52,289 nt of DNA, taken from a virus. How positions within the stretch are numbered: position 1 is the first letter of the stretch; each line of letters begins with the position of its first letter. The position numbers and the translations under genes were made by a program. The notes beneath the pieces are model-generated. The model was not told the DNA's origin. It saw only the letters and a program-made list of their open reading frames with translations, and ran no database searches. Where the stretch lies: IMG/VR virus record IMGVR_UViG_3300028840_003294, positions 1 to 52,289 of that record, one strand, 5' to 3'. Below, one piece after another: positions 145 to 52,289 of the stretch.

Positions 145-170
145 CATTCAGACCGAGAAACGGAGCAGGC
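105..170 (+). promoter_or_regulatory. Double stem-loop leader element, copy C
   Basis: Two hairpins lie between the stop of the upstream gene and the start at 171. Stem 1 pairs 114-120 with 128-134 (AGGGTCC with GGGGCCCT, one G-U, loop of seven). Stem 2 pairs CGGTC at 139-143 with GACCG at 151-155 around a seven-base loop. It is followed by GAGAAACGGAGCAGGC and ATG. The same architecture occurs at 50890-50965 and 51416-51483. No U-run follows, so this is not a simple terminator. I infer an RNA element controlling translation or transcript processing. Confidence 0.7.
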
Positions 171-4571: not shown

Positions 4572-5864
4572 ATGAAAAAGTTGTTGATCGTTGTTTACCT
4601 CATGCTCGTTGCGCTGCCCGTAGCGGCGAACGTCCCACCACCAACCGAATACACCAGCGGCGCCGACTGCGTCCGTCGCCTGATTGCCGGCCAGAACATC
4701 GACGTTGGGCGCGTCGAGCTCGAGTGGCTCGAGAATGACCTACTCGTTTCCTACATCATCGAAGACCCCGACTGGCGAATCAAAGAGGTGCATTTTGGAT
4801 GGTGGCACGAGCAGGGGAATCTTCCCGCTCACGCCGTTCCCGGGGATCTTCAATATGGTCGGGAGGATCTCGACACTACATTGCACTCATTCACCATTTC
4901 AAAGGACAACCTTTGCACGTTCTCGAAGGACGCGCCGGCGAAGTGCGAGGACCGCTGCCCTTGTTGGTTTGCGGCTCACGCTGTTGTAGAGCGGCCGTGC
5001 CCTGAAGAAAAGACGATCTATAAGCCCGGGCGATATGCCACGTCCGCAAAGATCAAGGTCACGCGAGAGGGTCGAAGCTCATTCTTTAACGTTCAAATCC
5101 AAGGGAGCGGGATCAATGCAGCAGTCAACAACGGATGGTGCCTCGACAAAAGACTCACACTCCCCGAGGGAATCTGGCTCGACGCCGAAGTCATCTACGA
5201 CTGGCAGGAGCTCGATGGAATTGTTGATTTTCCACAAAATATGGCCCTCATCGAATGGATTGCAAGGCAAAATTACGTTGGTCGAAAGGTCTTCTGTGGG
5301 CAAATCGTCCAGCGCATACACGTACAAAATGCAATCTGGAATCTGGCTCACGGTAAGCAAATTGGCTGTGTGGCTTCTGCGATTGTCAGCGAGGCACGGC
5401 GCCACGCAAATTCAAAAAACATTCAGCGATCCTGTTGGGAAATGGCGGCAGACTTTGTCCTAACCCCAAGGCTTTGCTCGATGGTTTCTCCCCCGGATGG
5501 TTTCGCTTGTGCGATGTATCAACCGATCTACTCCTACAAATATGTGAGGGAAACATGCCCAACAGATACACCTACCCCGTCAGAAACCCCAACCAGGACG
5601 GCGACTCCCACGCGCACCATTACGCCTACGTTTTCGGCTACCTCCACGGCAACGAGTACGCCCACCGGCACCCCGCCGCCCACTTTGACGCCCTCTTTTA
5701 CACCTACTGCAACGCCTACCGAAACGGCGCCGCCGACTTCTACGCCGACCGCGACTTCAACGCCAAGCCCCTGCCCGCCGCAGCGCGAAACCGCATGGGC
5801 TTTTGGCTCAGTCGAATTCGGTATCGGTTGGGGTTGGTTTTTCGAGTGCTGCGAGGGTGAGTGA
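4572..5864 (+). CDS. Secreted Cys-rich protein with TP-rich linker, possible thioester-type domain
   Basis: A 430-residue protein with a clear signal peptide (MKKLLIVVYLMLVALPVAA, cleavage near residue 19). Residues 20-325 form a Cys-rich domain. It contains NNGWCLD (Cys190) and later VQNAIWNL (Gln252 region), a pair reminiscent of Cys-Gln thioester (TQXA-like) adhesin domains; this is a resemblance only. Residues 330-400 are a Thr/Pro/Ser-rich linker (TPT-type repeats), followed by a short tail ending FECCEGE. The ATG at 4572 has AAGGAG upstream. It opens the segment containing sulfotransferase-like, methyltransferase and glycosyltransferase genes. Likely exported by the infected cell. It could alter the host surface, block superinfection, or be a glycosylated product of the downstream enzymes. 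Confidence 0.7.
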   Translation: MKKLLIVVYLMLVALPVAANVPPPTEYTSGADCVRRLIAGQNIDVGRVELEWLENDLLVSYIIEDPDWRIKEVHFGWWHEQGNLPAHAVPGDLQYGREDLDTTLHSFTISKDNLCTFSKDAPAKCEDRCPCWFAAHAVVERPCPEEKTIYKPGRYATSAKIKVTREGRSSFFNVQIQGSGINAAVNNGWCLDKRLTLPEGIWLDAEVIYDWQELDGIVDFPQNMALIEWIARQNYVGRKVFCGQIVQRIHVQNAIWNLAHGKQIGCVASAIVSEARRHANSKNIQRSCWEMAADFVLTPRLCSMVSPPDGFACAMYQPIYSYKYVRETCPTDTPTPSETPTRTATPTRTITPTFSATSTATSTPTGTPPPTLTPSFTPTATPTETAPPTSTPTATSTPSPCPPQRETAWAFGSVEFGIGWGWFFECCEGE

Positions 5865-7326: not shown

Positions 7327-8990
7327 TGAAAACCTACGTCATCACTTGCACCGGCGACCGTCCCGAAGCACTCAAGCTCTGCAACCACTACATGCAGCGG
7401 CAGGGCCATCAAGACTTCACATGGATCGTGGCAGACGACAGCGCCAACTCGATCCCCGAGAAGCCAAAGCGGTGCGACACATTCCTGCTCCGGAAATTCG
7501 AGAAACCAGGGGGGCACTCGTTACTTGGGAATCTTCGATTTGCGCTGATGCACATTCTTCAGGCCCCGGGCCCGGACCCTGACGACCTTGTCCTCATCGT
7601 AGAAGACGATGACTGGTATCACGCGGGTTACATTGGAATGATGCAGCACTACGCTCGCGTCCTCCCGCCCGAGATTGTCCTCTTTGGCGAATCCCACACG
7701 CGCTATTACAACGTCCGGTGGCGCACTTACCGCCACAACGACAACGCAGAGTGGGCAAGTCTTTGCGCCACCTGTTTCAAGGCTTCATTCATTCCTGACA
7801 TGCTCAAAATTGCCCAAAACGCCGACCCTGACCGGCCGTTCATTGACGTAATCGCCTTCACCGAGAATGCCGAACGGGCGCACCTGTTCCTTACGGACTT
7901 CGTTTGTGGCATCAAGGGCATGCCGGGAAGGACCGGCATCGGCCACGGCCACACAGAGGCTTGCAAGCGCCTGAAGCGAGACCCGTGGCTCGAGACTCTC
8001 CGCGACTGGACGGGCCCGGACTGCGAACGCTACCGAGATTTTTACCATTCCGAGGAGCTCAAGGACATTCCGATTCCCCAAGACCAGCGCCATGAGCCTT
8101 GGGCAATTCAGGAAATGAAGCAGCGGGCCGAAGGCGAGTCCGGAATTTGTTGCATCTTCCGTCAACCCGGCGTTCTTCCTGATCTCACGGCTTTCGCGGC
8201 CGGCGCGTTCGCGCATGGATACCTCAACGAGTTCCGAGACATCGCGGACGCGAGACTCTCGCATTTCCCGCCGGCAAACCTCGCGGTCATCTCGGGGGGC
8301 TTTCTCAGGCATGGCGGCTTGAACGGCAAAGTGTTTGAACACTACCGAGCGATCGGCGTTCCTGTCGTCATTTGTGATCCCGGGCGCGTCGTCAAGAACG
8401 CTCAACGAATCTACGTGAACCGAGAACATTGGCTACCGCCTACCCTTCCACCGCGGAACCGCATTGAGCACCTTGGGCTCATGCCGAATTTTCAGGAGCG
8501 GGGGACAAAAATTCTGATCGCCGGCCAACGTCCGGATCTCGACAACCAGCTTCGGCCGGCGCTCGAGGCGATCAAAGCCTACAGTGATCGACAAATCGTT
8601 TTCCGGCCGCACCCGAACACCTACCACGGCCACGAAAGGCCGCTCTACGACCTTCCCTATGACCGCGTGAGCGTTGGGGGCGATGGGATCAATGAAGAGA
8701 GCAGGCAAACGCTCAACGAGGCCCTGTGCGATGCTTGGTGCGTCGTGACGCATTCCTCAATTGTCGGGGCCGAGGCGCTATTGAAGGGCATCCCTGTCAT
8801 CTGCTCCGACGACGCCGTCTTTTCCGACGCGGGCGTCCCCCTTGAGGCGGCGTGCGACGTTGAAAAATTGGGCCGGCCAAATTGGGAGGAGCTCTACAAT
8901 TTCCTCCGTCGATGGAGCTACACAATTTGGTATGAGAGCGAACTGAGGTCCGGACAGGCATTCTCGTATCTGAAGGAGTTTATAAAATAA
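7326..8990 (+). CDS. Two-domain glycosyltransferase (GT-A plus GT-B-like)
   Basis: A 554-residue protein. The N-terminal part (1 to about 250) looks like a GT-A glycosyltransferase: TCTGDRPEAL at the start of the nucleotide-binding fold, VADDS (35-39), and VEDDDWY (92-98) as the DxD metal/nucleotide site. The C-terminal half (about 280-554) carries FRPHPN (426-431) and VTHSSIVGAEALLKGIPV (474-491), which recall CDP-glycerol or Kdo-type transferases with GT-B folds. The ATG at 7326 overlaps the previous stop; GCGGGGG precedes it. It would add two sugar-like units to an acceptor, acting in the cytoplasm on host envelope precursors, on virion protein, or on phage DNA. The neighbouring methyl- and sulfo-transferases suggest a decorated glycan. 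Confidence 0.75.
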   Translation: MKTYVITCTGDRPEALKLCNHYMQRQGHQDFTWIVADDSANSIPEKPKRCDTFLLRKFEKPGGHSLLGNLRFALMHILQAPGPDPDDLVLIVEDDDWYHAGYIGMMQHYARVLPPEIVLFGESHTRYYNVRWRTYRHNDNAEWASLCATCFKASFIPDMLKIAQNADPDRPFIDVIAFTENAERAHLFLTDFVCGIKGMPGRTGIGHGHTEACKRLKRDPWLETLRDWTGPDCERYRDFYHSEELKDIPIPQDQRHEPWAIQEMKQRAEGESGICCIFRQPGVLPDLTAFAAGAFAHGYLNEFRDIADARLSHFPPANLAVISGGFLRHGGLNGKVFEHYRAIGVPVVICDPGRVVKNAQRIYVNREHWLPPTLPPRNRIEHLGLMPNFQERGTKILIAGQRPDLDNQLRPALEAIKAYSDRQIVFRPHPNTYHGHERPLYDLPYDRVSVGGDGINEESRQTLNEALCDAWCVVTHSSIVGAEALLKGIPVICSDDAVFSDAGVPLEAACDVEKLGRPNWEELYNFLRRWSYTIWYESELRSGQAFSYLKEFIK

Positions 8991-9286: not shown

Positions 9287-9957
9287 CAGAGCGCAAGGAG
9301 CAGGCAATCGCGCTGAGAAAAAACTTGTCCGAAGTGTCAAACCTCGTAGCTGATCTCGAAATTCAAAACGAGCACGACTTGAAAGAGGCGGCAAACATCG
9401 GCAAGGCAATCAAGGCGTATCAAAAGTCCGTCTCCGAATTTTGGGGGCCCTTGGTAGAAAATGCACACAGCACATGGAAGTCCTTGACGGCCAAGCGAAA
9501 CGAGTTTCTCAACCCCGCAAAAGACCTTGAGGCCAGTGTCAAGAAAAAGATTGCGGAGTTCGATCGGAAGATGAGGCTTCAGGCCGAGGAGGAGCGCCGC
9601 AAGGCTCTCGAACAGGAAACGAAAGCGGCCGAGGCCCGCCGGCTTGCGGATCTCGCAGAGCTCGAGGAATCCGGCCTTGTCGATGAGGCTGCGAGTCTTG
9701 CGGAACAGCCCCTCGATGTCGCGCCGATTCAAAAAATCGAAGCGCCGAAGGCCGAGGGCGTTCACACGAGAGAGAATTGGACCGCCGAGGTCATCGACTT
9801 TCAAAAGCTCATCGAATTTTGTGCCGAGAATCCGAGGTGGAATTACCTTCTTGCTCCCAAGGGCCCGGAGCTCAACAAGCTCGCCAAAGCACAGAAGAAG
9901 GCTTTCGATATTCCCGGCGTAGAAGCAAAGTGCGAGCTGACTACGGTAATCCGATGA
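9283..9957 (+). CDS. Coiled-coil protein of the recombination segment
   Basis: A 224-residue, highly charged protein with a long predicted coiled coil over roughly residues 5-140 (heptads of Leu/Ala/Lys/Glu) and a small globular C-terminal part (TAEVIDFQKLIEFCAENP onward). It resembles phage proteins commonly found with annealases and RusA, whose role is not known, possibly a scaffold for replication or recombination. The ATG at 9283 overlaps the preceding stop. Its stop overlaps the RusA start (ATGA). Confidence 0.65.
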   Translation: MTERKEQAIALRKNLSEVSNLVADLEIQNEHDLKEAANIGKAIKAYQKSVSEFWGPLVENAHSTWKSLTAKRNEFLNPAKDLEASVKKKIAEFDRKMRLQAEEERRKALEQETKAAEARRLADLAELEESGLVDEAASLAEQPLDVAPIQKIEAPKAEGVHTRENWTAEVIDFQKLIEFCAENPRWNYLLAPKGPELNKLAKAQKKAFDIPGVEAKCELTTVIR

Positions 9958-10445
9958 GGGAAAAGATTACTTTTTTCGTCCCCGGCCGGCCAAGGCCACA
10001 GGGCAGCATGAAGTTTATAAACAAAGGGAAGCGCTCAATCCCCATTCAAAACCAGAAGCTCGAACACTGGCGTTCTGCGATAACAATGTACGCTCAAGAG
10101 GCAATGGGGGGCCTAGCTATCGTGGGCGGCGTTGGCCTTTCTCTCTCGTTTGTTTTCAAGCGCCCGAAAAGCCACTACCGCACCGGGAAGTACGCTCACC
10201 TTTTGAAAGACAGCTCGCCTGATCGAATGCTCAAGGCCCCCGACGTTGACAAGCTCATCCGGGCCGTGCTGGACTCATTGACAGGCATCGTGTTCACCGA
10301 CGACTGCGAAGTGGATCGAGTCGGAGTCGTCAAAAAATGGGGGCCCCGAGAGGGGGTCGAAATAACAGTGAGAGGAGTCTGCTATGCCGTGCAAGGGCGG
10401 GAAGAAGAAGAAGGGCAAGAAGAAAAAGGGCGGGAAGAAGGGTAG
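9954..10445 (+). CDS. rusA: RusA-family Holliday junction resolvase
   Basis: A 163-residue endonuclease. The N terminus FFVPGRPRPQGSMKF (7-21) and the core PDVDKLIRAVLDSLTG (96-111) followed by FTDD (114-117) match RusA: Asp97, Asp99 and Asp116 or Asp117 should bind Mg2+ at the dimer active site. RusA cuts four-way junctions symmetrically, resolving recombination intermediates before packaging. It ends with an unusually acidic tail (residues 149-163, mostly Glu and Gly). The tail DNA also encodes a basic peptide in another frame (10384-10449). Start by ATGA overlap with the coiled-coil gene. Confidence 0.9.
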   Translation: MREKITFFVPGRPRPQGSMKFINKGKRSIPIQNQKLEHWRSAITMYAQEAMGGLAIVGGVGLSLSFVFKRPKSHYRTGKYAHLLKDSSPDRMLKAPDVDKLIRAVLDSLTGIVFTDDCEVDRVGVVKKWGPREGVEITVRGVCYAVQGREEEEGQEEKGREEG

Positions 10446-10449
10446 GTGA
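10384..10449 (+). CDS. 21-residue Lys/Gly-rich peptide overlapping rusA
   Basis: Within the 3' end of rusA, in another frame, an ATG at 10384 is preceded by AGAGGAG at good spacing (six bases from GGAG). It opens a 21-codon frame beginning MPCKGGKKKKG and ending KKGR, stopping at TGA 10447-10449, four bases before the spanin-like gene. Nearly every residue is Lys or Gly. Very short basic MPxxGK-type frames are seen in other phage genomes. It could bind nucleic acid, or serve only to couple translation into the gene at 10453. Confidence 0.5.
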   Translation: MPCKGGKKKKGKKKKGGKKGR

Positions 10450-10452
10450 CGC

Positions 10453-11288: not shown

Positions 11289-14200
11289 TTACTCTTTTTT
11301 TAGCCGCCGCTTCAAGGTTTGCAGCTCGATCGTCCGGTAACGACGGTTGAATTTCTTGAATTCATTCTGCATCCTCGAGTCCTTGACAGTCACCCCGGCT
11401 TTCCGAAGCTCGCGGACCCTCTTCTCTGTTGCCTTCACAATTTCCTCAATCGCCAAAACATTTTTGTGCCGCTTGTAGAAGTCAGCCGCGGCCTTCGGAT
11501 CGGTTTTCGTGAGCTCGTCGTAGGTCTCTTTCTTGATCCAGTAATCGCCCATGTTGGCGCGGTACATATTGGGAGCGAAAAACTGCGACTCTTCGGCAAA
11601 GAAAGATTTAAGGACAGGAACATCCCGGGCCGAAAGCGTTTCCCCCGCAGCGCCCTTTGAAAGCAGACTCAGCCCGCGAATCACAGTATCGCCAAGACCT
11701 CCAAGCGCGGCGCCGATCGCATAGTCGATGTCTTCCGGGGAAATGTCGATCCCAAGGTGTTTATACATGAACCGCGTCATCTCTTTCGAAGGCTTTGAGA
11801 CGCTTGAAAAATAACGGTTGTAGTTTGGAGTCGGCACGCCGTACTGTTCAGATCGTGCGAACTTTGAAGGCTCTGGTCGAATCGGTCCTCCCCAAAAATT
11901 GCGGTTCGCGGAGATGTCATAGACGGGGTCAAGCCACGCCGGCATTCCCATTTGGACGAGGCCAACGAGCGTCGTCGGGTCATTGTCGCCAATCGGGTTG
12001 AAGGCTGAGAGGCCGGCTGAGAGGATATGCGCTGTGCCCTCCCAGGCTGCGTCTTTTGTTTCGCTTGGCCGATCCAGTGCGCGATTGACGGCGTCGGCGG
12101 CAAACACTCCAGCTGCGGGGAACAGATTAAATCCCCAAGGCAGCGGAATCTTAAACCGTTTCCCCTCTCCCCCGGGGACCATGAAAATGAGGTTCCGCTT
12201 TTTCTCCCATGCGGGGATTTTGTCCCAATAGGGGATTTTGTCTTTCTCGTCCTCGCCGCCAACCCAACGCATCATCGAAGCGTGCATGAATCCGTAGCCC
12301 ATCGCTCCGAGCATCATCTTTTGAACCTGTCGGTTCTTGGCTACCGAGTCAATGACCATTTTTGAGCCCTGCAAGGAGGCATTGGCGAACACATACCACG
12401 GGCTTAGATATTGCGCGACTGTGCCCTGTTGCGTGAAATCGACAGTGATGTCTCGCGCCAGCTTGCCGGCCCTGTCTTTAGAAAGGCCAATTTCGAGCCC
12501 GCGCTCAAAAACGGAGAAGCGCAACATTCCTTCGACTGCGGCGTTGTAATCTTCAATCCAATTGATTACAGATTTGACGGTGCTGAAAACCTTATTCTGC
12601 TCACCCTTGGTTTGCTCGATTTGAGCCTGAATCTTCCGCATCTGATCCGCTAAATCGGGAATCATCCAGAACGCGGTTTCCCCGCCGGCGAGCTTGAACT
12701 GCTCGATTCTCTGGCGCTTCGTGGCGTCCATTTGGTCGAGCGTCCCTTTCGACTGGCGACGAGCGTATTCTCCGAGAAGCGCCGCTGCCTCTGGAACGCG
12801 CTTCATTGTCTTCAAGCCAAAGCCCTCAAACTTCTTTTCGCCGCCGAGCTTGATCCCGGCGGTGAGAGCATCGCGGACAGCGTTCGGAATCACAAATGCG
12901 GGGTTTCTCGAGGTTGCCATCTTCGAGATGTAGCGGTTGATATTTACGCCAGCCTTCAAGATCGGGTTCAAGTCTTTTGACGAGCCAACGTTATTCAACG
13001 CAGAGACGAATTCAGCCATCCCGGGGCTGACGTGGCGAATGTAGTGCAGCTCGCCGTCGATCCAAACGTTGTAAACGTTGTCCTTGACCACCGAGAGCCC
13101 GTCGATTTTGGTTTTTACGGTCTGCGTCTTTTCATCCCACACGAGCCGCGAATCCGGGCGGTCAATCTCAAAGAGCTTCTCGCCGTTTACGTCCTTGACG
13201 TTCTTCATCTTCTGGACGAAATTCCAGACCGTCTTTGCAACGCGATTCTTTTCGGCCCGCACGGCCGTCTCCATCGCGTCCGTCATCAGCTCTACAGTGG
13301 CCGAGTGTGTTGGGAAAGACCGCCGGCCGAGGGCACGATGAGCGGCAGGGCGCCGACCCGGGTTATACCCGCGGCCGGTGTTCGGGAGATGGATCTTGTC
13401 GGCTATGCCAAGGCCACGAGCAGCTCGAGCCAGGGCCCGGTGCCACATCTTACCGCCGTACATCTCAATCTCGGGGATCGGGGGGCGCCTGCCGTTGGCG
13501 ATGATGTCCAAGATGTCCGGGTCTTTGCCCCGCATCGGAGCGTAATGCTTGTAGTCCCGCCATTTTTTGAGCTCGTCTTTCGAGAGCAAGCCGGCACGGA
13601 ATAGCGTTTCTTCTTTCCAGCGGACGATGTCCGAAAACCGGCGCGAAAGCCGACCGAGCTTGCCTCTATAGACCGTATCTGGTCCGAGCTCCCCATCCCA
13701 TTCCACAAGCCCAAGCTCGCGCATCTCCTCGAGAGCGGCCTTTGCGTGCTCGTCTGTGATTCCAGAGTGAGGCGCCTCTCCAGCCTCGTCCATTCGCCTG
13801 ATTTCAGCGATTTTCTCTTTTTCGCGAGCCACGGATTCGCGCTCGAGGGTTCTCATTTCGACGCGCTTCGGCTTGGCTGAGAACCCGCGCTCGTTGAAGA
13901 ACCGAACCTCTGCAATTCCCGACTCGCGGTTGACCGCTACCACCTCGCCCTTGGCGTTGTTCTCGAGCGACCGGACCTTAGTGCCAATGGACAGGTGCTT
14001 CGTTTCCAGCTTCGCAATTTTGGCCTCTGCCTGTTTAATTGGAAGCGTCACATTCGCCATGCGAATTTTCGGGTTTCGCTCAAGCGCATGAGCGGCCATG
14101 CGGAACAAATCGAAGTCCTCGAGATGAATCCCCGACTTTGCTATGTCGGTAATCAACGGTTTGAAGAGCTTCTCTTCGACCCAATCAACAAGGGCGCCCG

Positions 14201-17200
14201 CACGCGCCTGGAAATTCTGCGCCTTGAGGTAGGCGTCGAAAATTTCGTCGAGCTCTTGACCAACCTCCGTGAGTTTTTCCTGAATTGTGCGAATCGGAGC
14301 TATGCGATCGAAGAGTGTTTTCTCCGCACGGTTTCGGTAATACTCCGTGAGCGTGTGGTCTTCAATCTGCACCCCGGGGTGCTGATCCCCTGAAAGCTCG
14401 TGAGCTCCAGACAACGAGTAAACAGTCTGCGCGTCACCGCGGTCGATGAGCTTTTCTGTGCCGGCGCCCTCGATCGCATTCCGCCACGCTTCGGGGAACT
14501 CTTCAGGAGCGAGCTTCCGATAATCGAACGCTTCTTCTGCGGCCCGCCTCGCACTAAGAATATCGTTCCGAATCGTCCTTAAAATCTTTTGCCCCGTTGG
14601 GTCGGTGATAATCGCCGCCTCTCCCTTTTGAGTCTCAAAAATCTCGCCGCTTGCGATTTGCTCCATGATGCCGGCGGCGCCTTCGATGTCGGCAATTTTT
14701 AGACCCGCAACGTTTTCGAGAAGAGACTGCGCGAACCGCTGGAGGAATTTGAAAATTTGGGTCGCTCTCGGCTCGGCCTCTGCTCGCGTCTCGGCCCACG
14801 CCTGATACGCTTGGGCCGCGCCCTCTTCGGTCTCGTACACCTTCAGCAAGGTCATGCGTTGATCGTTCGTGAGAACGTTATGAAACGCGAAGTGAAAGGA
14901 TTCGTGAAACACCTCTTGGGAAATGCGCTTTGGATTGTAGAGAGAAATCAAATGAGCCCCGCTCATGTCTCCCTGCTGCCCAATTCGATACCGCCCCTGC
15001 ACCTTGACGGTGCCGGCGTCCAGTGCGGCCACCAAATCTTCGGGTTTTATGTTTCGATTCTCCGCTGCCGTTTTGATGAACTCGTCGTCGATCGTCGGGC
15101 CGGGACCGCCAACGGCAACATGCAGAACTGGTTGGCCCTCCCTCGTCAAGCGGAACAGGCCCCCCTGTGTGTGCCGCACATTCCAGCCGCGGAACGCCTT
15201 TTGAATTTTTGGAACGAGCTTCGCCGCTCGAGCTCGAACGCCCTTGTCTTCTTTGTCCTGCTCTGCTTTTCTTTTTCGTGCCTCGCCCTCTTTTTTCGTG
15301 GCGATTTGAATGCGCCGAAGCCTGAGAATCTCTTCGCTGATTTTTTTCTTTTCTGCCGGGTTGGCGTTGTTGAGCTGCGCCGTTAGGTCTTTGATCCGGC
15401 TTTGAATCGTAACCCCGCTCTCGACGTCCTCGGCCCGTGCCGGGGCCTCTGTCGTAGCGGCCGGCTCGAATTCGGTTCGCCTTGCAATCTCGTCCTCGAG
15501 AACGATTGCGAGATCGTGGATCTCGGGATCGAGGCTTTGCACGAGCTCCTCGTCTTTTCTTGTGAGTATTTCGATCGCTGATTCGCCGGCCTCGATGCGC
15601 TTGATGAATTCCGCGACCGCTTTCGGGCTGTTGTCCTGCTCGCGGGCAACGCGGTACATCTGGTCAACGACGTCGTCCGCAGTTCGACGCCTGCCGAACA
15701 TTCTGCGCTCAACGTCTTCGATGGTTTCCTCTGGCGCTTCTTCCCTTGTAAAGCGTTCGAGGATGTTACGCTCCGAGACCGCAGCCTCGAGCTCGAGCGC
15801 CAGGTCTCGCGCCTCGCCGCCGAGCTGTTCTTCAATTTGAACGTCCGACTCGTAAATCTGGTTGACCGTTTGGCCTTCCTCGAGGCCCCTCACGAGTTTC
15901 TGCACGATAGCGGGTTCAATGTTGTTCTTGCGCTGGAACTCGAAAATGTCGTTTTTGACTTTGTCGATTTCGCGCCGGCGCCCTGGCTCTTCCCGCCGCT
16001 CATCTGGCATCTCGATAAATTGGTCCGCGGCTTCTTGTTGCGCGAGGTATTCTTCCGGCGAGATGTCCGGTTTTTGCAAGGCGGCAATCAGGTCGCCCAC
16101 CGTAGCACTCGGCGGCAAATATCCTTCTTCCTTAACAACCTCAAGCATTTGATCCGGCTTCATTCCGTCTTTTCTGCGATAACGAACCGGAACGCCTTCG
16201 CGGCCTTTGTCTCCGTAAATTTCCTCTGAGAGATAGCCTCCTGTGTGTTTGCCGATGCCACCATTTTCGAGAACAATTTGATGAATGGTTCGACCGAGCC
16301 GACGCTGCCCCTTCAGCCTGCGAAGGTGTGGATGTAAGGCTATGACTTCCTCATCAAGCACGACGCCCTTGCGGATCGCTTTTTTGAGCACCGCCTCGTG
16401 GTCTTCTTCGGCCCCGGTTTGCTCGTATTCTTGCGTTGTCATCTCCCACGGATTCTTCGGCTTCTCGATCGGCGGGAGCGGCGTAACTGGTTCCGGGGTA
16501 GCACCCTCTTCGACTTGCTTCCCCTCGTCCAGCCTCATAGCACCGCTCTCAACGCCGTGAGGCTGCGTCGGAGCGGCGGGGCCACCCACTACGGGCCCAC
16601 CTACCGCCGGAGCCGCAGGGCCACGGCCAACGCCCTCAGAGAGATTGCGCTGTCCTCTTTGGCTTGGCGGCGGCGGGAGCTCTGCAAAGGTTTCGGTTTC
16701 TGCTTGCATGCGCTGGCCCGCGACAAGCTCATCGGCTTTGTTGATCGTCGTGGCGAGCTGGCGCATCGCCTCCTGTGGGGAGAGGCCCTGCTCGCCGGCA
16801 AGATCAACAATCGCGGCTTGAGTGTCTTGGTCAAGGTCGCCAGTAACGAACGCCTGGAACAGCTCCGGTCTCACCTTCAGCCAGTCTGGAGCATAGCCGG
16901 CGCGAGCGGCCTCAACACCTTCTGGCGGCGCTAATCTGGCGGACCCGCCCGGGCCATAAAGCGGCGCCACGTCAACGCCGCTCGGAGCAGGCGACCCGGG
17001 CGGGACCACAAACTCTTCCGGCCTTACGTCCGGTTGTGTTTCGGGGATCGGCTCTGTTTGAACAAACTCAGGGACCGCGGGCCCCATGTCAGCCCGAACC
17101 GCATCGGTTCGCGCTGCAACCTCTTCTCCGGTTGGACCCGGCCCTACCTCGGTCTGCGCTTGAATGTTCCCGGCGCCCCCTCCAAAGGGGCCCATCATCG

Positions 17201-18440
17201 TTCCCATTAACCCCGCTTCTTCGATCGACCGTATTACATTGCCCCACGTTTCGGATCGACCTTCCGGCGTCGTGAATGCTTCTATGTTTTCGAGCTCGCC
17301 ACGGTTCATGCGAACAAAATCGGCCGCGGCAGACTCAACGAGCGTTTGTGGAACCTCCGTCAAAACCTCTTCGGCGCCCTGCCGAAGCGCCTCGAGACCC
17401 TTCCGCGCAAGCCATGTTTTGAAAGATTTCGCAGTAATCGGATTTCTCGCAAGCAGCCGGCCGACTGGAGCGAACTCAAGAGCCCCGGTCAAAACACCAA
17501 GCGTTGAGGCGGCGAGCTGTGCGTCTTCTCCTGTGACGCCCTCGGCCTCGAGGTCGGTGAGAATTGAGCCGGTCTGCATCGCCGCGGCGTCCGCAGCCGC
17601 AAGCGCGGGGTTTACCATCGCAGTAGCAACCATCGGCCCCATAACCGGCGCCTGTTCACCGAAAAGGCCGGCGGCATATTTGGCGGGCCCCAATAGTGGT
17701 TCCTCTTCCGACGCTTCTGCGAGCGTTTCAAACCGGCGCTTCGGCGCGATCATTTCATTGCCAACGGCGGCATCGACCGCCACCTCTCTCGCCATTTCGG
17801 CCACCGGGCCAGTCGCTTCGTGCATTTTCTTCGCAACGTCGGTTTGATAAAGCGGGTTGGTGTAGAGTTGCGAGGTCGTGCCAAGGGGGATAACCGGCGC
17901 CTGCTCAAGCGCCATCGTAAACGAGTCGGCAAGGTTTGCAGCCCCGGAAAGTCTACTCGTCAATGCTGTGCTACCGCGCTGGACGCCGCGGACAAGATCC
18001 CCTGCTATTTCCGCGAGCTGCTTTGTGATCGGGTTGTAGCCCTTGGTCGAGTAGATATATTTTTCAACGACATCGCCGTAATCGCTTTCAATGTCTTCGG
18101 TTCCGCTGATCGGCGCTCGCGCCACGCTATACGTTTCTTCCTCGTTGGCCCCGTCTGTGTCAACCACGATTCCGCGAAGGGCCCGACGCTCATCCGGAGT
18201 GAGCATCTGCCAATAGGGGCCCGCCTGAGCGAGCTTATTGAAAGCGGCGTGTCGTTCAATGCGCGGGAGGGAGAGAAAGTCTTGACTTGAGGGCAATTCG
18301 TAGAGCTGCCGACGCTGCCAAACGGCGCCAAGGTTATAACCTAGCTCCTCCCACTCATCACGCAGCCTGAAGATTTCTTCTTCTGGCGTGTCGTCGGGGA
18401 AATGCGCGTATTCTTCTCCAAACCTTACGCGGACGACCAC
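11289..18440 (-). CDS. Giant internal/ejection protein, polyvalent type, with HExxH motif
   Basis: A 2383-residue protein, last gene of the structural operon, starting at GTG 18440 with AGAGGTGATAA upstream. The N terminus (VRFGEEYAHFPDDTPEEEIFR) resembles that of other giant phage virion proteins. Hydrophobic, Ala/Gly-rich segments follow at about 190-400, a Pro-rich stretch at about 440-660, and charged coiled regions at about 750-1100. VFHESFHFAFH contains a zincin-like HExxH (His1179, Glu1180, His1183). NPAFVIPNAVRDAL (1846-1859) matches the style of the LPD38 domain of large polyvalent proteins. Such proteins are injected with phage DNA and can carry counter-defence or lytic activities. 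Metalloprotease activity is inferred from the motif only. The 150-290-residue proteins just upstream are probably co-ejected partners. Confidence 0.75.
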   Translation of the reverse strand: MVVRVRFGEEYAHFPDDTPEEEIFRLRDEWEELGYNLGAVWQRRQLYELPSSQDFLSLPRIERHAAFNKLAQAGPYWQMLTPDERRALRGIVVDTDGANEEETYSVARAPISGTEDIESDYGDVVEKYIYSTKGYNPITKQLAEIAGDLVRGVQRGSTALTSRLSGAANLADSFTMALEQAPVIPLGTTSQLYTNPLYQTDVAKKMHEATGPVAEMAREVAVDAAVGNEMIAPKRRFETLAEASEEEPLLGPAKYAAGLFGEQAPVMGPMVATAMVNPALAAADAAAMQTGSILTDLEAEGVTGEDAQLAASTLGVLTGALEFAPVGRLLARNPITAKSFKTWLARKGLEALRQGAEEVLTEVPQTLVESAAADFVRMNRGELENIEAFTTPEGRSETWGNVIRSIEEAGLMGTMMGPFGGGAGNIQAQTEVGPGPTGEEVAARTDAVRADMGPAVPEFVQTEPIPETQPDVRPEEFVVPPGSPAPSGVDVAPLYGPGGSARLAPPEGVEAARAGYAPDWLKVRPELFQAFVTGDLDQDTQAAIVDLAGEQGLSPQEAMRQLATTINKADELVAGQRMQAETETFAELPPPPSQRGQRNLSEGVGRGPAAPAVGGPVVGGPAAPTQPHGVESGAMRLDEGKQVEEGATPEPVTPLPPIEKPKNPWEMTTQEYEQTGAEEDHEAVLKKAIRKGVVLDEEVIALHPHLRRLKGQRRLGRTIHQIVLENGGIGKHTGGYLSEEIYGDKGREGVPVRYRRKDGMKPDQMLEVVKEEGYLPPSATVGDLIAALQKPDISPEEYLAQQEAADQFIEMPDERREEPGRRREIDKVKNDIFEFQRKNNIEPAIVQKLVRGLEEGQTVNQIYESDVQIEEQLGGEARDLALELEAAVSERNILERFTREEAPEETIEDVERRMFGRRRTADDVVDQMYRVAREQDNSPKAVAEFIKRIEAGESAIEILTRKDEELVQSLDPEIHDLAIVLEDEIARRTEFEPAATTEAPARAEDVESGVTIQSRIKDLTAQLNNANPAEKKKISEEILRLRRIQIATKKEGEARKRKAEQDKEDKGVRARAAKLVPKIQKAFRGWNVRHTQGGLFRLTREGQPVLHVAVGGPGPTIDDEFIKTAAENRNIKPEDLVAALDAGTVKVQGRYRIGQQGDMSGAHLISLYNPKRISQEVFHESFHFAFHNVLTNDQRMTLLKVYETEEGAAQAYQAWAETRAEAEPRATQIFKFLQRFAQSLLENVAGLKIADIEGAAGIMEQIASGEIFETQKGEAAIITDPTGQKILRTIRNDILSARRAAEEAFDYRKLAPEEFPEAWRNAIEGAGTEKLIDRGDAQTVYSLSGAHELSGDQHPGVQIEDHTLTEYYRNRAEKTLFDRIAPIRTIQEKLTEVGQELDEIFDAYLKAQNFQARAGALVDWVEEKLFKPLITDIAKSGIHLEDFDLFRMAAHALERNPKIRMANVTLPIKQAEAKIAKLETKHLSIGTKVRSLENNAKGEVVAVNRESGIAEVRFFNERGFSAKPKRVEMRTLERESVAREKEKIAEIRRMDEAGEAPHSGITDEHAKAALEEMRELGLVEWDGELGPDTVYRGKLGRLSRRFSDIVRWKEETLFRAGLLSKDELKKWRDYKHYAPMRGKDPDILDIIANGRRPPIPEIEMYGGKMWHRALARAARGLGIADKIHLPNTGRGYNPGRRPAAHRALGRRSFPTHSATVELMTDAMETAVRAEKNRVAKTVWNFVQKMKNVKDVNGEKLFEIDRPDSRLVWDEKTQTVKTKIDGLSVVKDNVYNVWIDGELHYIRHVSPGMAEFVSALNNVGSSKDLNPILKAGVNINRYISKMATSRNPAFVIPNAVRDALTAGIKLGGEKKFEGFGLKTMKRVPEAAALLGEYARRQSKGTLDQMDATKRQRIEQFKLAGGETAFWMIPDLADQMRKIQAQIEQTKGEQNKVFSTVKSVINWIEDYNAAVEGMLRFSVFERGLEIGLSKDRAGKLARDITVDFTQQGTVAQYLSPWYVFANASLQGSKMVIDSVAKNRQVQKMMLGAMGYGFMHASMMRWVGGEDEKDKIPYWDKIPAWEKKRNLIFMVPGGEGKRFKIPLPWGFNLFPAAGVFAADAVNRALDRPSETKDAAWEGTAHILSAGLSAFNPIGDNDPTTLVGLVQMGMPAWLDPVYDISANRNFWGGPIRPEPSKFARSEQYGVPTPNYNRYFSSVSKPSKEMTRFMYKHLGIDISPEDIDYAIGAALGGLGDTVIRGLSLLSKGAAGETLSARDVPVLKSFFAEESQFFAPNMYRANMGDYWIKKETYDELTKTDPKAAADFYKRHKNVLAIEEIVKATEKRVRELRKAGVTVKDSRMQNEFKKFNRRYRTIELQTLKRRLKKE

Positions 18441-37807: not shown

Positions 37808-37818
37808 GGCCCCTCCTC

Positions 37819-37861
37819 AAAAAGCGGCGGGGTCGGGGGAAGGAGGAGCCCGACCCCGCCG
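37819..37861 (-). terminator. Strong intrinsic terminator after the major capsid gene
   Basis: A perfect 13-bp stem (37825-37837 with 37849-37861, CGGCGGGGTCGGG with its complement) encloses an 11-base loop. On the minus strand it is followed by CTTTTTG. It lies between the capsid gene stop and the next ribosome-binding site. It probably lowers transcript level for downstream genes relative to capsid protein. Confidence 0.92.
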
Positions 37862-37874
37862 GGTTGATAAGAGG

Positions 37875-49084: not shown

Positions 49085-49305
49085 GACGGCTCCTCCATTT
49101 CTGATTCCTGCTCGAGAACCATGAACCGCTCCGCTGTGGCTGAATACGGGCGCGTCGATCGACTCTCCCACAACGCAATCGTCACAGGCGTAGTCTCCAA
49201 CATCTCCGCCAATTGCACTTGCGTCACCAACAATTTCAAACGTAGCGCCTTGACCCGCTGGCCCCACGTCATCTCGTCCATCAAAAACCCCTGAGATTCT
49301 GGCAT
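49081..49305 (-). CDS. XRE-family transcription regulator
   Basis: A 74-residue protein, start ATG 49305 with TTGGAGG upstream. Residues 27-47 (VTQVQLAEMLETTPVTIALWE) form the helix-turn-helix of a Cro/C1-type regulator. It is the first gene of the minus operon, close to its promoter, so it probably controls expression in the divergent region. No integrase exists, so it may set early/late timing in a virulent phage rather than lysogeny. It couples to the replication gene by GTGA. Confidence 0.85.
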   Translation of the reverse strand: MPESQGFLMDEMTWGQRVKALRLKLLVTQVQLAEMLETTPVTIALWESRSTRPYSATAERFMVLEQESEMEEPS

Positions 49306-49345
49306 TGAGAATAGCCTCCAACAACTTAAAAAGTCGGGCAAACTC

Positions 49346-49374
49346 TTTATAACCTCGTAAGCCCTAAAAGTCAA
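49346..49374 (-). promoter_or_regulatory. Strong sigma70 promoter for the minus operon
   Basis: On the minus strand TTGACT (complement of 49369-49374) and TATAAA (complement of 49346-49351) are separated by exactly 17 bases, five and five matches to consensus. Transcription would start about 49339, leaving a 5' leader of about 34 bases before the regulator ATG at 49305. This is the best promoter in the window. Confidence 0.88.
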
Positions 49375-49445
49375 TGGTTCCGGAAAATTATTTCCCACAA
49401 CTAAACTGCCACCCGATCGCCCAAATTTTTGCGTAAATTTCTGGA

Positions 49446-49462
49446 GGGGGAATAGTTCCCCC
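49446..49462. promoter_or_regulatory. G-rich hairpin upstream of the minus promoter
   Basis: GGGGGAA (49446-49452) pairs with TTCCCCC (49456-49462) around a TAG loop. It lies about 70 bases upstream of the minus -35 box, so it is not in the minus transcript. A structural or binding-site role is possible; in either transcription direction it lacks a U-run after the stem. Confidence 0.5.
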
Positions 49463-49491
49463 CCCGTGGGGCGCTCGTGGGGGTGGACGGG

Positions 49492-49526
49492 GCCCGGGTG
49501 TTGGTGCTTCGTCGTGGTGCCCGGGC
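49492..49526. repeat. Inverted repeat with GCCCGGG arms
   Basis: GCCCGGG (49492-49498) and CCCGGGC (49520-49526) form 7-bp arms separated by 21 bases. The right arm continues to GCCCGGGCTCCC, which recurs at about 49618-49629. CCCGGG occurs in at least four places in 49490-49800, an unusual density for non-coding DNA and a candidate for binding-site repeats of an origin or regulator. Confidence 0.55.
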
Positions 49527-49842
49527 TCCCGGTCGCGTCGATATCGAGGTTGACATAATAGCAGTTATCGGACGCTAGCCCGCTAACCCGTGAAGACTCA
49601 ACGGCTTAACCCCTTGGGCCCGGGCTCCCAGTCTCAACTAAGGCAGGGTGGCGCCGAAACCGACCGCACCCGGGGCTCGACTCCCGCCCGGATGGTTGCT
49701 CCCGGGGGACTGGGGACCGCTGATCCTGAGATCCGGACCAGCCGAGCTCGCCGCGCTTGCGGTTCGGGAATCCTCTCCCCCTCACAAAGCCCGGGTTCGA
49801 GCGATGGCAGGGCGGGGAACGGATGAGAGATCCAATGACGTA

Positions 49843-49876
49843 GGGCGTCAGCATTTCACGTCACTCAATGACGCCC
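49843..49876. promoter_or_regulatory. Operator-like inverted repeat before the ArdC gene
   Basis: GGGCGTCA (49843-49850) is the reverse complement of TGACGCCC (49869-49876), with an 18-base spacer. Four TGACG or CGTCA boxes lie between 49836 and 49876, giving nested inverted repeats. Such arrangement is common for repressor dimers, such as the XRE protein encoded at the other side of this region. No clear promoter overlaps it. Confidence 0.5.
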
Positions 49877-49992
49877 ACCGTCACATTATTTGTAAACCTA
49901 CACCGTAAACAAAGGACTTAGCTGTTGGCATGGATTCTGCATATTCAATCAATGCGTTGTCAGAGACGCAAAAAACCAAAGGGGGTTCAATC

Positions 49993-50889
49993 ATGGGTTC
50001 GAAATTCTACAGTGAGAAAGCGGAACAGGCAGCGAACAAGATACTGGAGGCATTTGAGGAGCCCGGGAGGCTTCCCGCGGCATTGAAGGACATCGCCTTG
50101 CCAGCCACGGAGCGCCACGCGGGGAGTTACAGCATCAGGAATCAAATGTTGGTTTGGATAAACGGATACACGGACGCCGCGGGGTTCAAGCAATGGAAGA
50201 AGTACGGACGCGCCGTCCGCAAAGGCGAGCGCGGGTTCCCCATTCTCGCACCCGTGACCGCGACGTTTACCGCGAAGGATACCGACCCAGAGACGGGCAG
50301 AGAGATCGAGCACCCCGTGACCTACATCCGCGGATGGCGCCACGTTACCGTCTTCGGGATCGAGCAGACCGACATCGTGAATGAGGAGCTCTGGCAGAAA
50401 TACAGCGAAGCAGCGGCGAAGAATGCCGAGTTTCTCGAGAATCTCCCATGGGTCGAGGTGGCGCGGTCATGGAATCTCGCCTGCGGCGCCGACGGTCGCT
50501 TGCTCGAATACGGCGCCCGGGGTTGCTACACACACGGAAAAGCGATCGAAATCGGAGTAGAGAATCTCTCGACGTGGGCACACGAGCTCGTTCACGCGGC
50601 AGACGACCGCCTTGGAACGTTGACAAAGAAGTCCGGACAGCAGCCCGACAATGAGTTAGTTGCGGAGCTCGGAGGGGCTGTGCTGTGCCTCTGTGCCGGA
50701 CACGAGACCGAGGCGGACATCGGCGGAGCATGGGAGTACATCAAAGGCTATTCGAAAGACCCCGTCAAGGACGCCGGAAACCTCTTGTCTCGCATCGTAA
50801 CGGCCGTTGCTCTCATCATGGAACAAGCGAAGAACCCCGACGAGACCATTCCGGCCGTTAACCCCGAGCTCAAGACCAAAGCAGCGTAG
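49993..50889 (+). CDS. ArdC-like antirestriction protein with metallopeptidase motif
   Basis: A 298-residue protein. Residues 1-150 are the ArdC N-terminal, single-strand-DNA-binding type: SIRNQMLVWINGYTDAAGF (47-65), QWKKYGRAVRKGERGFPIL (67-85). The second half has HELVH (197-201) and NELVAELGG (220-228), giving zinc ligands His197, His201 and probably Glu225, as in ArdC metallopeptidase-like domains. ArdC proteins protect incoming DNA from restriction. The ATG at 49993 has GGGGG eight bases upstream and is preferred over one at 49930. It opens the plus-strand operon, so it is probably expressed first on entry. The start context lacks the double-hairpin leader found before later genes. Confidence 0.85.
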   Translation: MGSKFYSEKAEQAANKILEAFEEPGRLPAALKDIALPATERHAGSYSIRNQMLVWINGYTDAAGFKQWKKYGRAVRKGERGFPILAPVTATFTAKDTDPETGREIEHPVTYIRGWRHVTVFGIEQTDIVNEELWQKYSEAAAKNAEFLENLPWVEVARSWNLACGADGRLLEYGARGCYTHGKAIEIGVENLSTWAHELVHAADDRLGTLTKKSGQQPDNELVAELGGAVLCLCAGHETEADIGGAWEYIKGYSKDPVKDAGNLLSRIVTAVALIMEQAKNPDETIPAVNPELKTKAA

Positions 50890-50965
50890 CGGGCCCGTAG
50901 CAGCGCCCGCGGGGGCGTTGCCGCGGTCTCACTAACACCAGGGACCGAGAAGAGGAGCAGAGAAA
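50890..50965 (+). promoter_or_regulatory. Double stem-loop leader element, copy A
   Basis: Stem 1 pairs 50901-50908 (CAGCGCCC) with 50913-50920 (GGGCGTTG). Stem 2 pairs CGGTC at 50924-50928 with GACCG at 50943-50947 around a 14-base loop (longer than in the other copies). AGAAGAGGAGCAGAGAAA and ATG follow. It lies between the ArdC stop and the start at 50966. The layout matches copies at 51416-51483 and 105-170. Confidence 0.75.
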
Positions 50966-51415
50966 ATGAAGCGAACAGGCACACCAGCCCGAACCGGAGC
51001 GCTTGACGGACTGAGACACCTACACAGGGACTTGACGAGATACGCGGGCGCCTGCAAACGGGTTGCCGACGAATACGAACAAATGGCGAGGAACAGCGAT
51101 GGATGGGACGACGCAGCAATGCGGCGCGCTCTTTTAGACGCGGGGCTTCAAAGAATCGAACAGCGGCGCGTGCTGTCATGGGCGACCGACCTACAAACGC
51201 TCATCGACGAGCAGACCCACGCGCCACGAGGCCAGGACGAGCTCGAAGCAGGGCATCTCGGGCGCCTAACCTCCGTGTTGACCGAGCTCCAGACAATTCA
51301 ATTTGAGACATCAGACGACGAGCTCGCCGCGGCGTTGAGCGCGCCGATTCGCGCCACCAGGGAGGCATGCGACCACATCAAACGAGCCCGGGAGCGCTCG
51401 ACGTGTGACCGATAG
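50966..51415 (+). CDS. Helical hypothetical protein
   Basis: A 149-residue protein, helical and charged throughout, rich in Arg and Leu, no membrane segment. It has one Cys near residue 29 and CDHIKRARERSTCDR at the end. AGAGGAGCAGAG precedes the ATG and the double-hairpin leader precedes that. The sequence resembles small phage proteins of unknown role that form helical bundles. It belongs to the same regulatory class as the genes at 51484 and 171. Confidence 0.7.
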   Translation: MKRTGTPARTGALDGLRHLHRDLTRYAGACKRVADEYEQMARNSDGWDDAAMRRALLDAGLQRIEQRRVLSWATDLQTLIDEQTHAPRGQDELEAGHLGRLTSVLTELQTIQFETSDDELAAALSAPIRATREACDHIKRARERSTCDR

Positions 51416-51483
51416 CGTGACGGTAACGCGGGGACGAGCGCCCCGCGTCGCGGTCACACTACGACCGAGAACAGGAGTGAAGA
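51416..51483 (+). promoter_or_regulatory. Double stem-loop leader element, copy B
   Basis: Stem 1 pairs 51427-51433 (CGCGGGG) with 51441-51447 (CCCCGCG), a perfect seven-pair helix with a seven-base loop. Stem 2 pairs CGGTC at 51451-51455 with GACCG at 51463-51467, seven-base loop. GAGAACAGGAGTGAAGA and ATG follow. This is the cleanest copy and has the same spacing as copy C. Confidence 0.8.
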
Positions 51484-51687
51484 ATGCGAGGAATAGAGAA
51501 ATACGGCGAGCAGGGATTGTACGACGTCAGCAATCAAGCGACCGACGAGTGTGACAGCTGTCACCGCATGGCGCCCGGGCGTTGGACAACGGACGACGAG
51601 GAAGGCGGTTCCGAATGGTTCCTTTGCGACCGCTGCGCCCGCACCATCCGACAGCTGCGGCACGACGTACCGGAGCCCACCCAATGA
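51484..51687 (+). CDS. Small zinc-ribbon protein
   Basis: A 67-residue protein with CDSCH near residue 23 and LCDRC near residue 48, spaced for one four-Cys zinc ribbon. The remainder is short and charged. It starts after the double-hairpin leader with AGGAG upstream, and its stop overlaps the next start (ATGA). It is one of several Cys-pair proteins in this early region, whose roles are not known, possibly nucleic-acid binding. Confidence 0.75.
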   Translation: MRGIEKYGEQGLYDVSNQATDECDSCHRMAPGRWTTDDEEGGSEWFLCDRCARTIRQLRHDVPEPTQ

Positions 51688-51911: not shown

Positions 51912-52249
51912 ACGACGAATTCAAACTCACGAGCGAACACGCTAACCCCGGGCAAGGCTCAATGTTCGACGACCAAGAGCCCGCGCCCGAGGGAAAACAC
52001 AGGGCCGAGCTCCTCGTTTATCTTGCCACGCGAGGCGGGTTCGCGATGGTTTCGGACTTCCTCGAAAGCCTGAATTTTGAGGTTATCACAACGGGCGCCT
52101 GTATCAAATGCTGGGCACCGCGGCGAATGGTTGACCACGGGCCCGGCACCCGTGCTTATTGCCAGGACTGCTATACGCACACAGTCTGCCGAGCTCTGGA
52201 CATCGAAGCGAACAACATTCCCGGGTTCGTTAGCCCGAAACCAGAGTGA
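51908..52249 (+). CDS. Zinc-ribbon protein with helical N-terminal domain
   Basis: A 113-residue protein. Its first 30 residues are polar; the middle may be a small winged-helix (RAELLVYLATRGGFAMVSDF), and the C-terminal part has CIKC near residue 65 and CQDC near residue 86, the two pairs of a zinc ribbon. It ends 36 bases before the contig end and is repeated in part at 1-104. A double-hairpin element follows it, then the gene at 171. It could be a DNA-binding regulator. Confidence 0.7.
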   Translation: MNDEFKLTSEHANPGQGSMFDDQEPAPEGKHRAELLVYLATRGGFAMVSDFLESLNFEVITTGACIKCWAPRRMVDHGPGTRAYCQDCYTHTVCRALDIEANNIPGFVSPKPE

Positions 52250-52289
52250 AACCGAGAGAGGGTCCGCCCGCGGGGCCCTGTTTCGGTCG
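52146..52289. repeat. Direct terminal repeat, right copy
   Basis: Identical to bases 1-144. It holds the end of the zinc-ribbon gene and the first part of leader element C (52250-52289), which continues at 145 after closure of the circle. Confidence 0.95.

Follow-up and report, generated by a model that had tools for sequence, protein, structure and literature searches.

The analysed window is the whole of the virus record IMGVR_UViG_3300028840_003294 (52,289 bases), for which we called genes ourselves from open reading frames and ribosome-binding sites. Plus-strand genes extend from position 49,930 through the circle join as far as 1,980 in what looks like a single operon, the 3′ limit of which is marked by strong terminator-like hairpins at approximately 2,020–2,150; judging from its gene content, the operon is probably early. 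Its genes include an ArdC-like anti-restriction gene (49930–50889, + strand), a gene for a 149-aa protein with no detected relatives (50966–51415, + strand), a 67-aa gene with two CxxC pairs that is zinc-ribbon-like (51484–51687, + strand), and a gene for a 111-aa acidic protein, also with no detected relatives (171–506, + strand). Among the ten junctions within the operon, seven measure between −14 and +12 nt and three are wide, at 76, 68, and 66 nt. Each of the three wide gaps holds one copy of the RNA element described here, and none of the seven tight junctions carries one, with the result that the elements split the operon into four tightly packed gene modules. At the far side of these genes, the region 2015–2230 looks like an operon boundary, where two strong terminator-like hairpins (2020–2045 and about 2105–2140) and then a good sigma-70-like promoter (with TTGACA at 2199, 10/12) precede a small helix-turn-helix, excisionase-like reading frame.

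Elsewhere, the record encodes a terminase of the T7/Vectrevirus kind (approximately 23% identity), a RusA-like resolvase, and a polyvalent protein of 2,383 aa (11289–18440, − strand), the C-terminal part of which contains an LPD38 domain and shares approximately 27% identity with proteins from Stx-converting and Vibrio phages. Several further features were recorded along the way. A 430-aa protein encoded at 4572–5864 (+ strand) starts with a signal-peptide-like stretch and carries, near its C terminus, long repeats rich in Thr, Pro, and Ser, and a tiny reading frame at 10384–10446 (+ strand) consists almost entirely of Lys and Gly (MPCKGGKKKKGKKKKGGKKG). A likely intrinsic terminator, consisting of a very stable hairpin (z −6) and a U-run, occupies a 67-nt gap amid late genes at 37808–37874 (− strand).

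The three elements, designated A, B, and C, lie at 50890–50965, 51416–51483, and 105–170, ahead of ribosome-binding sites, and share a common order comprising a GC-rich hairpin, CGGTC...GACCG, GAGAA, two variable bases, GGAG, and ATG. An earlier note had described three copies with this order, and its description was borne out on the sequence; its further statement that the second stem (hereafter stem 2) is identical in all three held for the arms, which are indeed identical, but not for the loops, which measure 14 nt in A and 7 nt in B and C. In element A, a long hairpin of 48 nt (50887–50934, + strand; 22 rungs, 19 of them paired) begins at the TAG stop codon that closes the ArdC-like gene and runs to CACTA, while the alternative stem 2, composed of CGGTC, the 14-nt loop, and GACCG, spans 50924–50947 (+ strand) and can be extended to 7 pairs. 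The conserved GACCGAGAANNGGAG, which includes the ribosome-binding site GGAG, follows at 50943–50957 (+ strand). Element B is arranged similarly downstream of the 149-aa gene, with a 49-nt hairpin of 21 rungs from that gene's TAG stop to CACTA (51413–51461, + strand), the alternative stem 2 with its 7-nt loop between CGGTC and GACCG at 51451–51467 (+ strand), and GACCGAGAANNGGAG with the ribosome-binding site at 51463–51477 (+ strand). In element C, the hairpin comprises 51 nt (99–149, + strand; 22 rungs, 19 paired) and contains within its lower stem the TGA stop (102–104) of a 113-aa gene; the alternative stem 2, again CGGTC, a 7-nt loop, and GACCG, is located at 139–155 and GACCGAGAANNGGAG with its ribosome-binding site at 151–165 (both + strand). 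Elements A, B, and C precede the 149-aa, the 67-aa, and the 111-aa gene, respectively. The left end of the record contains copy C in full, and the first 46 bases of this copy recur at 52244–52289 as part of a 144-base repeat carried by both record ends (1–144 = 52146–52289). This repeat, which may be a true terminal repeat or an assembly overlap, stops inside the stem 2 of copy C.

A pattern scan for CGGTC-N(4–20)-GACCGAGAA returned three occurrences in the 52-kb record, all of them at the three elements, while a reversed control of the same pattern returned none in the whole record. These three exact matches have strand, position, and an adjoining hairpin in common. The components taken singly were not significant: the CGGTC/GACCG palindrome by itself gave 4 matches against 2.7 expected, and the frequency of GACCGAGAANNGGAG with three mismatches allowed was likewise not significant by itself. 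The 3′ half is the best conserved portion of the elements. No promoter-like or terminator-like sequence was found at any of the three copies, and internal promoters and intrinsic terminators were accordingly rejected as explanations; the earlier proposal that termination is unlikely for want of a U-run agrees with this result, as a U-run is indeed missing from each copy. Duplication of a gene together with its leader was also considered and rejected, as no relationship was detectable between the proteins encoded after A and those encoded after C.

Unconstrained folding of each copy predicted one irregular hairpin of 48–51 nt with approximately 22 rungs, interrupted by single mismatches or a symmetric 2 × 2 loop, and beginning at, or a few bases from, the upstream stop codon in every copy. 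In A and B, the UAG stop is paired with the CUA located after CGGUCnCA, and in C the UGA stop is located within the lower stem. In all three copies, the CGGTC arm belongs to the 3′ arm of the long hairpin and is paired upstream, and stem 2 therefore cannot coexist with the lower half of this hairpin. Thus, the two separate stem-loops that had been drawn as the main fold give way, in the predicted ground state, to a single long hairpin; when stem 2 was forced, the fold was less stable than the long hairpin by 1.6 (A), 8.4 (B), and 8.3 (C) kcal/mol. Conversely, when the 5′ arm was blocked and the leader was folded alone, stem 2 formed with a probability of approximately 0.9 or more. According to these folding predictions, the long hairpin and stem 2 are competing, mutually exclusive folds. 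The z scores of the long hairpin were −1.9 (A), −2.75 (B), and −3.78 (C), and in a motif-blind scan of both strands for 22-rung hairpins, A and C (19/22 each) were the only plus-strand hits with at least 19 pairs, with B listed at 18 pairs.

Comparison of the copies with one another revealed that pairing in the long hairpin has been maintained despite sequence divergence. The upper-stem arms, paired with their own partners, gave predicted duplex energies of −16.9 (A), −15.7 (B), and −11.4 (C) kcal/mol, compared with about −5 to −7 kcal/mol for swapped partners; own arms pair at 18 of 21 positions and swapped arms at 12–15 of 21. Since MAFFT places a gap wrongly in the upper stem, the rungs were counted by script, on the three copies within this phage. 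For A versus B, 17 canonical rungs are common to both, of which ten are the same, seven carry two-sided changes, and none carries a one-sided change. B and C have 15 rungs in common (six two-sided changes and one one-sided), and A and C have 16 (four two-sided and three one-sided). Shuffling only the lower 5′ arm yielded p values of 0.05 (A), 0.02 (B), and 0.0006 (C), or 7e-5 when combined. The observation of the earlier note that the stem 1 sequences differ between copies and still pair is thus upheld by both the energies and the two-sided rung changes. These three sequences strongly support selection for pairing in the long hairpin and are silent on stem 2, whose arms are invariant in this phage, leaving it without covariation support there, and which could be conserved as linear sequence. 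Taken together, the elements constitute a real, apparently selected RNA structure in an operon of a poorly sampled phage.

Protein searches for phages with homologues of the three downstream genes found none, and no relatives were recovered when the terminase, the polyvalent protein, and the 149-aa protein were used as queries in viral contigs, or when four products of the operon were compared with phage records. ArdC relatives were found at two loci, but without CGGTC...GACCG. Pattern scans, four on viral contigs and one on genome contigs, produced mostly chance-like matches; such scans require the exact consensus letters and may not cover the records closest to this one, and absence from them is weak evidence. 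The sole match with the full layout before a start codon came from IMGVR 3300010234_000020, a 44.6-kb contig of 70% GC whose proteins in common with the present record amount to a weak RusA match. It carries two leaders, each with a 7-bp stem (CGGUCGC/GUGACCG and GGCCGGU/AUCGGCC) followed directly by GAGAAACGGAG and ATG, and these hold the only two copies of GAGAANNGGAG in the contig; one of the two leaders was found by searching for it, and independent evidence comes solely from the other copy with its altered stem. A third, looser leader precedes the gene between those two. On the minus strand of this contig, at about 8540–8590, 9630–9680, and 10390–10450, the leaders of three consecutive genes thus have short stems that abut GAGAAACGGAGACAC (or GCGACAAGGAGACAC) and ATG, with sequences that differ and yet pair. 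The predicted fold of these leaders is a two-hairpin fold, unlike that of the elements described here. The leaders are partly similar to our elements and the phage is unrelated, and we regard a relationship between them as a lead only.

The explanation that we favor, tentatively and at somewhat less than even confidence, is that the elements are intercistronic sites of RNase III-type processing and stabilization, whose cut product would refold into stem 2. Starting from the predicted fold, the compensatory changes, the mutual exclusion of the two stems, and the positions of the elements, we infer the following course. In the polycistronic RNA, each wide gap would fold into one irregular duplex of 48–51 nt, or approximately two helical turns, spanning from the region of the upstream stop codon to just before GACCGAGAANNGGAG. 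Host RNase III may then cut the 3′ arm near the mismatch between the upper and lower stems, before GCGGUC (UUUCGGUC in C), which would leave the strong upper hairpin on the upstream message as a protected 3′ end and place the 5′ end of the downstream message near GCGGUCNCA (about GCGGUC). With its former partner gone, the CGGUC arm would be free to pair with GACCG, forming stem 2 at the new 5′ end, and the ribosome-binding site would remain open 3′ of this 5′-terminal stem. By this route, the four gene modules would become separate messages. A bolder formulation, which we consider doubtful, treats each copy as a two-state element, in which one conserved arm serves both the long processing hairpin and a 5′-terminal stabilizing stem; either cutting or a terminating ribosome would then toggle each module between a joined and an independent message, and leaders in which a short stem abuts GAGAANNGGAG, present too in the 70% GC contig, would form a wider class of phage translation leaders.

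The main rival to processing is a switch driven by the ribosome, in which a ribosome terminating at the stop codon of the preceding gene sits over the lower 5′ arm, frees CGGUC for pairing with GACCG, and alters access to the ribosome-binding site; such an erm-like relay would couple modules over gaps that are too long for simple re-initiation. Its attraction lies in the geometry, as the stop codon is within the lower stem in all three copies and the mismatch between the lower and upper stems is located 9–10 nt past the stop, close to the reach of a terminating ribosome. Moreover, blocking the arm in a leader folded alone raised the probability of stem 2 above 0.9. In a separate folding test, the accessibility of the ribosome-binding site increased from 0.52 to 0.93 in A and from 0.51 to about 0.81 in C; rpmI-rplT also provides a known case of coupling through RNA unfolding, over 52 nt (PMC12548453). 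However, when B was folded together with its downstream coding sequence, the probability of stem 2 was only about 0.12, and the accessibility of the ribosome-binding site fell from 0.67 to 0.24. The gain in C varied with the number of blocked bases, and the masking helix comprises just 2–3 pairs (−0.7 to −2.2 kcal/mol), and we consider this switch unlikely overall. Stable hairpins located directly after a stop codon would also suit a passive role without a specific cut, either in protecting 3′ ends after Rho-dependent termination and trimming, as at galE-galT, or in insulating the modules from one another, and an intercistronic hairpin found at the 3′ end of the E. coli galE mRNA provides a precedent (PMC9239205). 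Yet a passive hairpin accounts neither for the conservation of CGGTC...GACCGAGAANNGGAG toward the 3′ end nor for the constant length of two turns, which makes this role quite improbable in our judgment.

That the 3′ half is so well conserved might instead reflect an RNA site bound by a protein of phage or host origin, such as a translational repressor or an antitermination factor, that reads CGGUCnCAyU or stem 2 with GAGAA. We give this little credence, as stem 2 is hidden in the ground-state folds, antitermination does not need multiple copies per operon, and the proposal comes without a candidate protein. Conservation as DNA rather than RNA, in the form of a module-boundary or recombination sequence or a DNA operator, would suit elements that separate four tightly packed modules, and a role as DNA-binding sites has been proposed for short gene-start repeats such as ESAS (PMC3203893). 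The compensatory changes in the stems argue against this possibility, as do the spacing within stem 2, which is 7 bp longer in A than in B and C, and the absence of the palindrome from the likely promoter region at 49305–49930; a DNA operator in particular was rejected on account of this missing palindrome and the variable spacer, and we hold conservation as DNA to be improbable. Lastly, the record is GC-rich, hairpins are common in it, and copy A alone is weak (z −1.9), but the pattern scan and its control, the arm shuffles, the 22-rung scan, and the two-sided changes all speak against chance, which we regard as extremely improbable. We return to intercistronic processing as our preferred, if provisional, reading when setting the elements beside known systems.

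A search of the record against Rfam 15 gave no match at the gathering score, with only sub-threshold chance matches in 50850–51500. The put sites of HK022, to which the elements had previously been likened, occur where early transcripts begin, and RNA polymerase is their target. A constrained fold of our elements does give two stem-loops, as in the put RNAs, but the single long hairpin is preferred, and the elements recur in the same operon; their location between genes inside an operon, rather than at the 5′ end of a transcript, does not support that likeness. With erm leaders, rpmI-rplT, and f1 VII-IX, the elements share mutually exclusive pairings that could be switched by a ribosome at the upstream stop. 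Unlike in translational attenuators, however, the ribosome-binding site is hardly masked, and the predicted effect is inconsistent across the three copies: in the folding analysis, A and C were consistent with an erm-type masking and freeing of the ribosome-binding site, B behaved in the opposite manner, and the helices were weak. The ESAS of cluster K mycobacteriophages are likewise inverted repeats in several copies near translation starts, lying just upstream of a conserved translation-start sequence at a subset of non-structural genes (PMC3203893). Their authors found little support for mRNA hairpins, since arm changes there fail to preserve pairing (PMC3203893), and the 17-bp ESAS repeats are conserved as sequence, whereas the upper arms of our elements diverge with compensatory changes. 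The 13-bp SAS GGGATAGGAGCCC had 14 near-matches in the record against 14.35 expected, none of them at the elements.

The closest anatomical parallel is with the early RNase III sites of T7. We folded six early gaps of the T7 reference (NC_001604), and those before genes 0.3, 0.5, 1, 1.1, and 1.3 each contain a strong capped hairpin, while the 0.6–0.7 gap yielded no hairpin. The hairpin of the 0.4–0.5 gap begins exactly at the UGA stop, in a gap similar in length to those that hold our elements, and close junctions are found at 0.3/0.4, 0.5/0.6, and 1.1/1.2. The T7 site R1.1 is a 49-nt stem cut at nucleotide 5887, and such cleavage matures and protects T7 mRNA (PMC8708148). The minimum target of RNase III is a duplex of approximately 22 nt, and 8 of 19 putative E. 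coli RNase III sites remained uncut in vitro (PMC5371410). In both phages, several irregular hairpins occupy the wide gaps of one operon in which other junctions are close, the hairpin ends shortly 5′ of the next ribosome-binding site, the upper stems differ among copies while the 3′ flanks are similar, and an anti-restriction gene is the first in the operon. All three elements have the T7-type position, from a stop codon to the next ribosome-binding site inside an operon, and T7-type dimensions (48, 49, and 51 nt; 21–22 rungs; 18–19 paired). The resemblance does not extend to sequence, as comparison by eye revealed no GGCCUUUAUGAUU-like stretch in common. Nor does it extend to the internal loops, as T7 sites have a larger asymmetric one at the cut and our elements have single mismatches and one symmetric 2 × 2 loop; an asymmetric internal loop with a 3′-side cut site is, nevertheless, a feature of T7 sites and not of all RNase III substrates. 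Only in our elements can the 3′ arm re-pair with a downstream GACCG, an alternative fold that the T7 sites do not have.

The earlier claim that no element of this architecture has been described was therefore too strong, since the T7 early RNase III sites have most of it, and RNase III processing, one of the options raised at that time, appears to fit the anatomy best by comparison with T7. On present anatomical evidence, the elements probably work like T7 sites, and their membership in this class is putative. If so, a phage only distantly related to T7 would have reached the same way of splitting an early message into modules, and the self-refolding 5′ end would be an addition beyond the T7 solution. 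The elements would then offer a compact example of an RNA element that turns one transcript into several stable messages, and hairpins located only at the loose junctions of a tightly packed operon, as in T7, would be a pattern to seek in uncultured phages.
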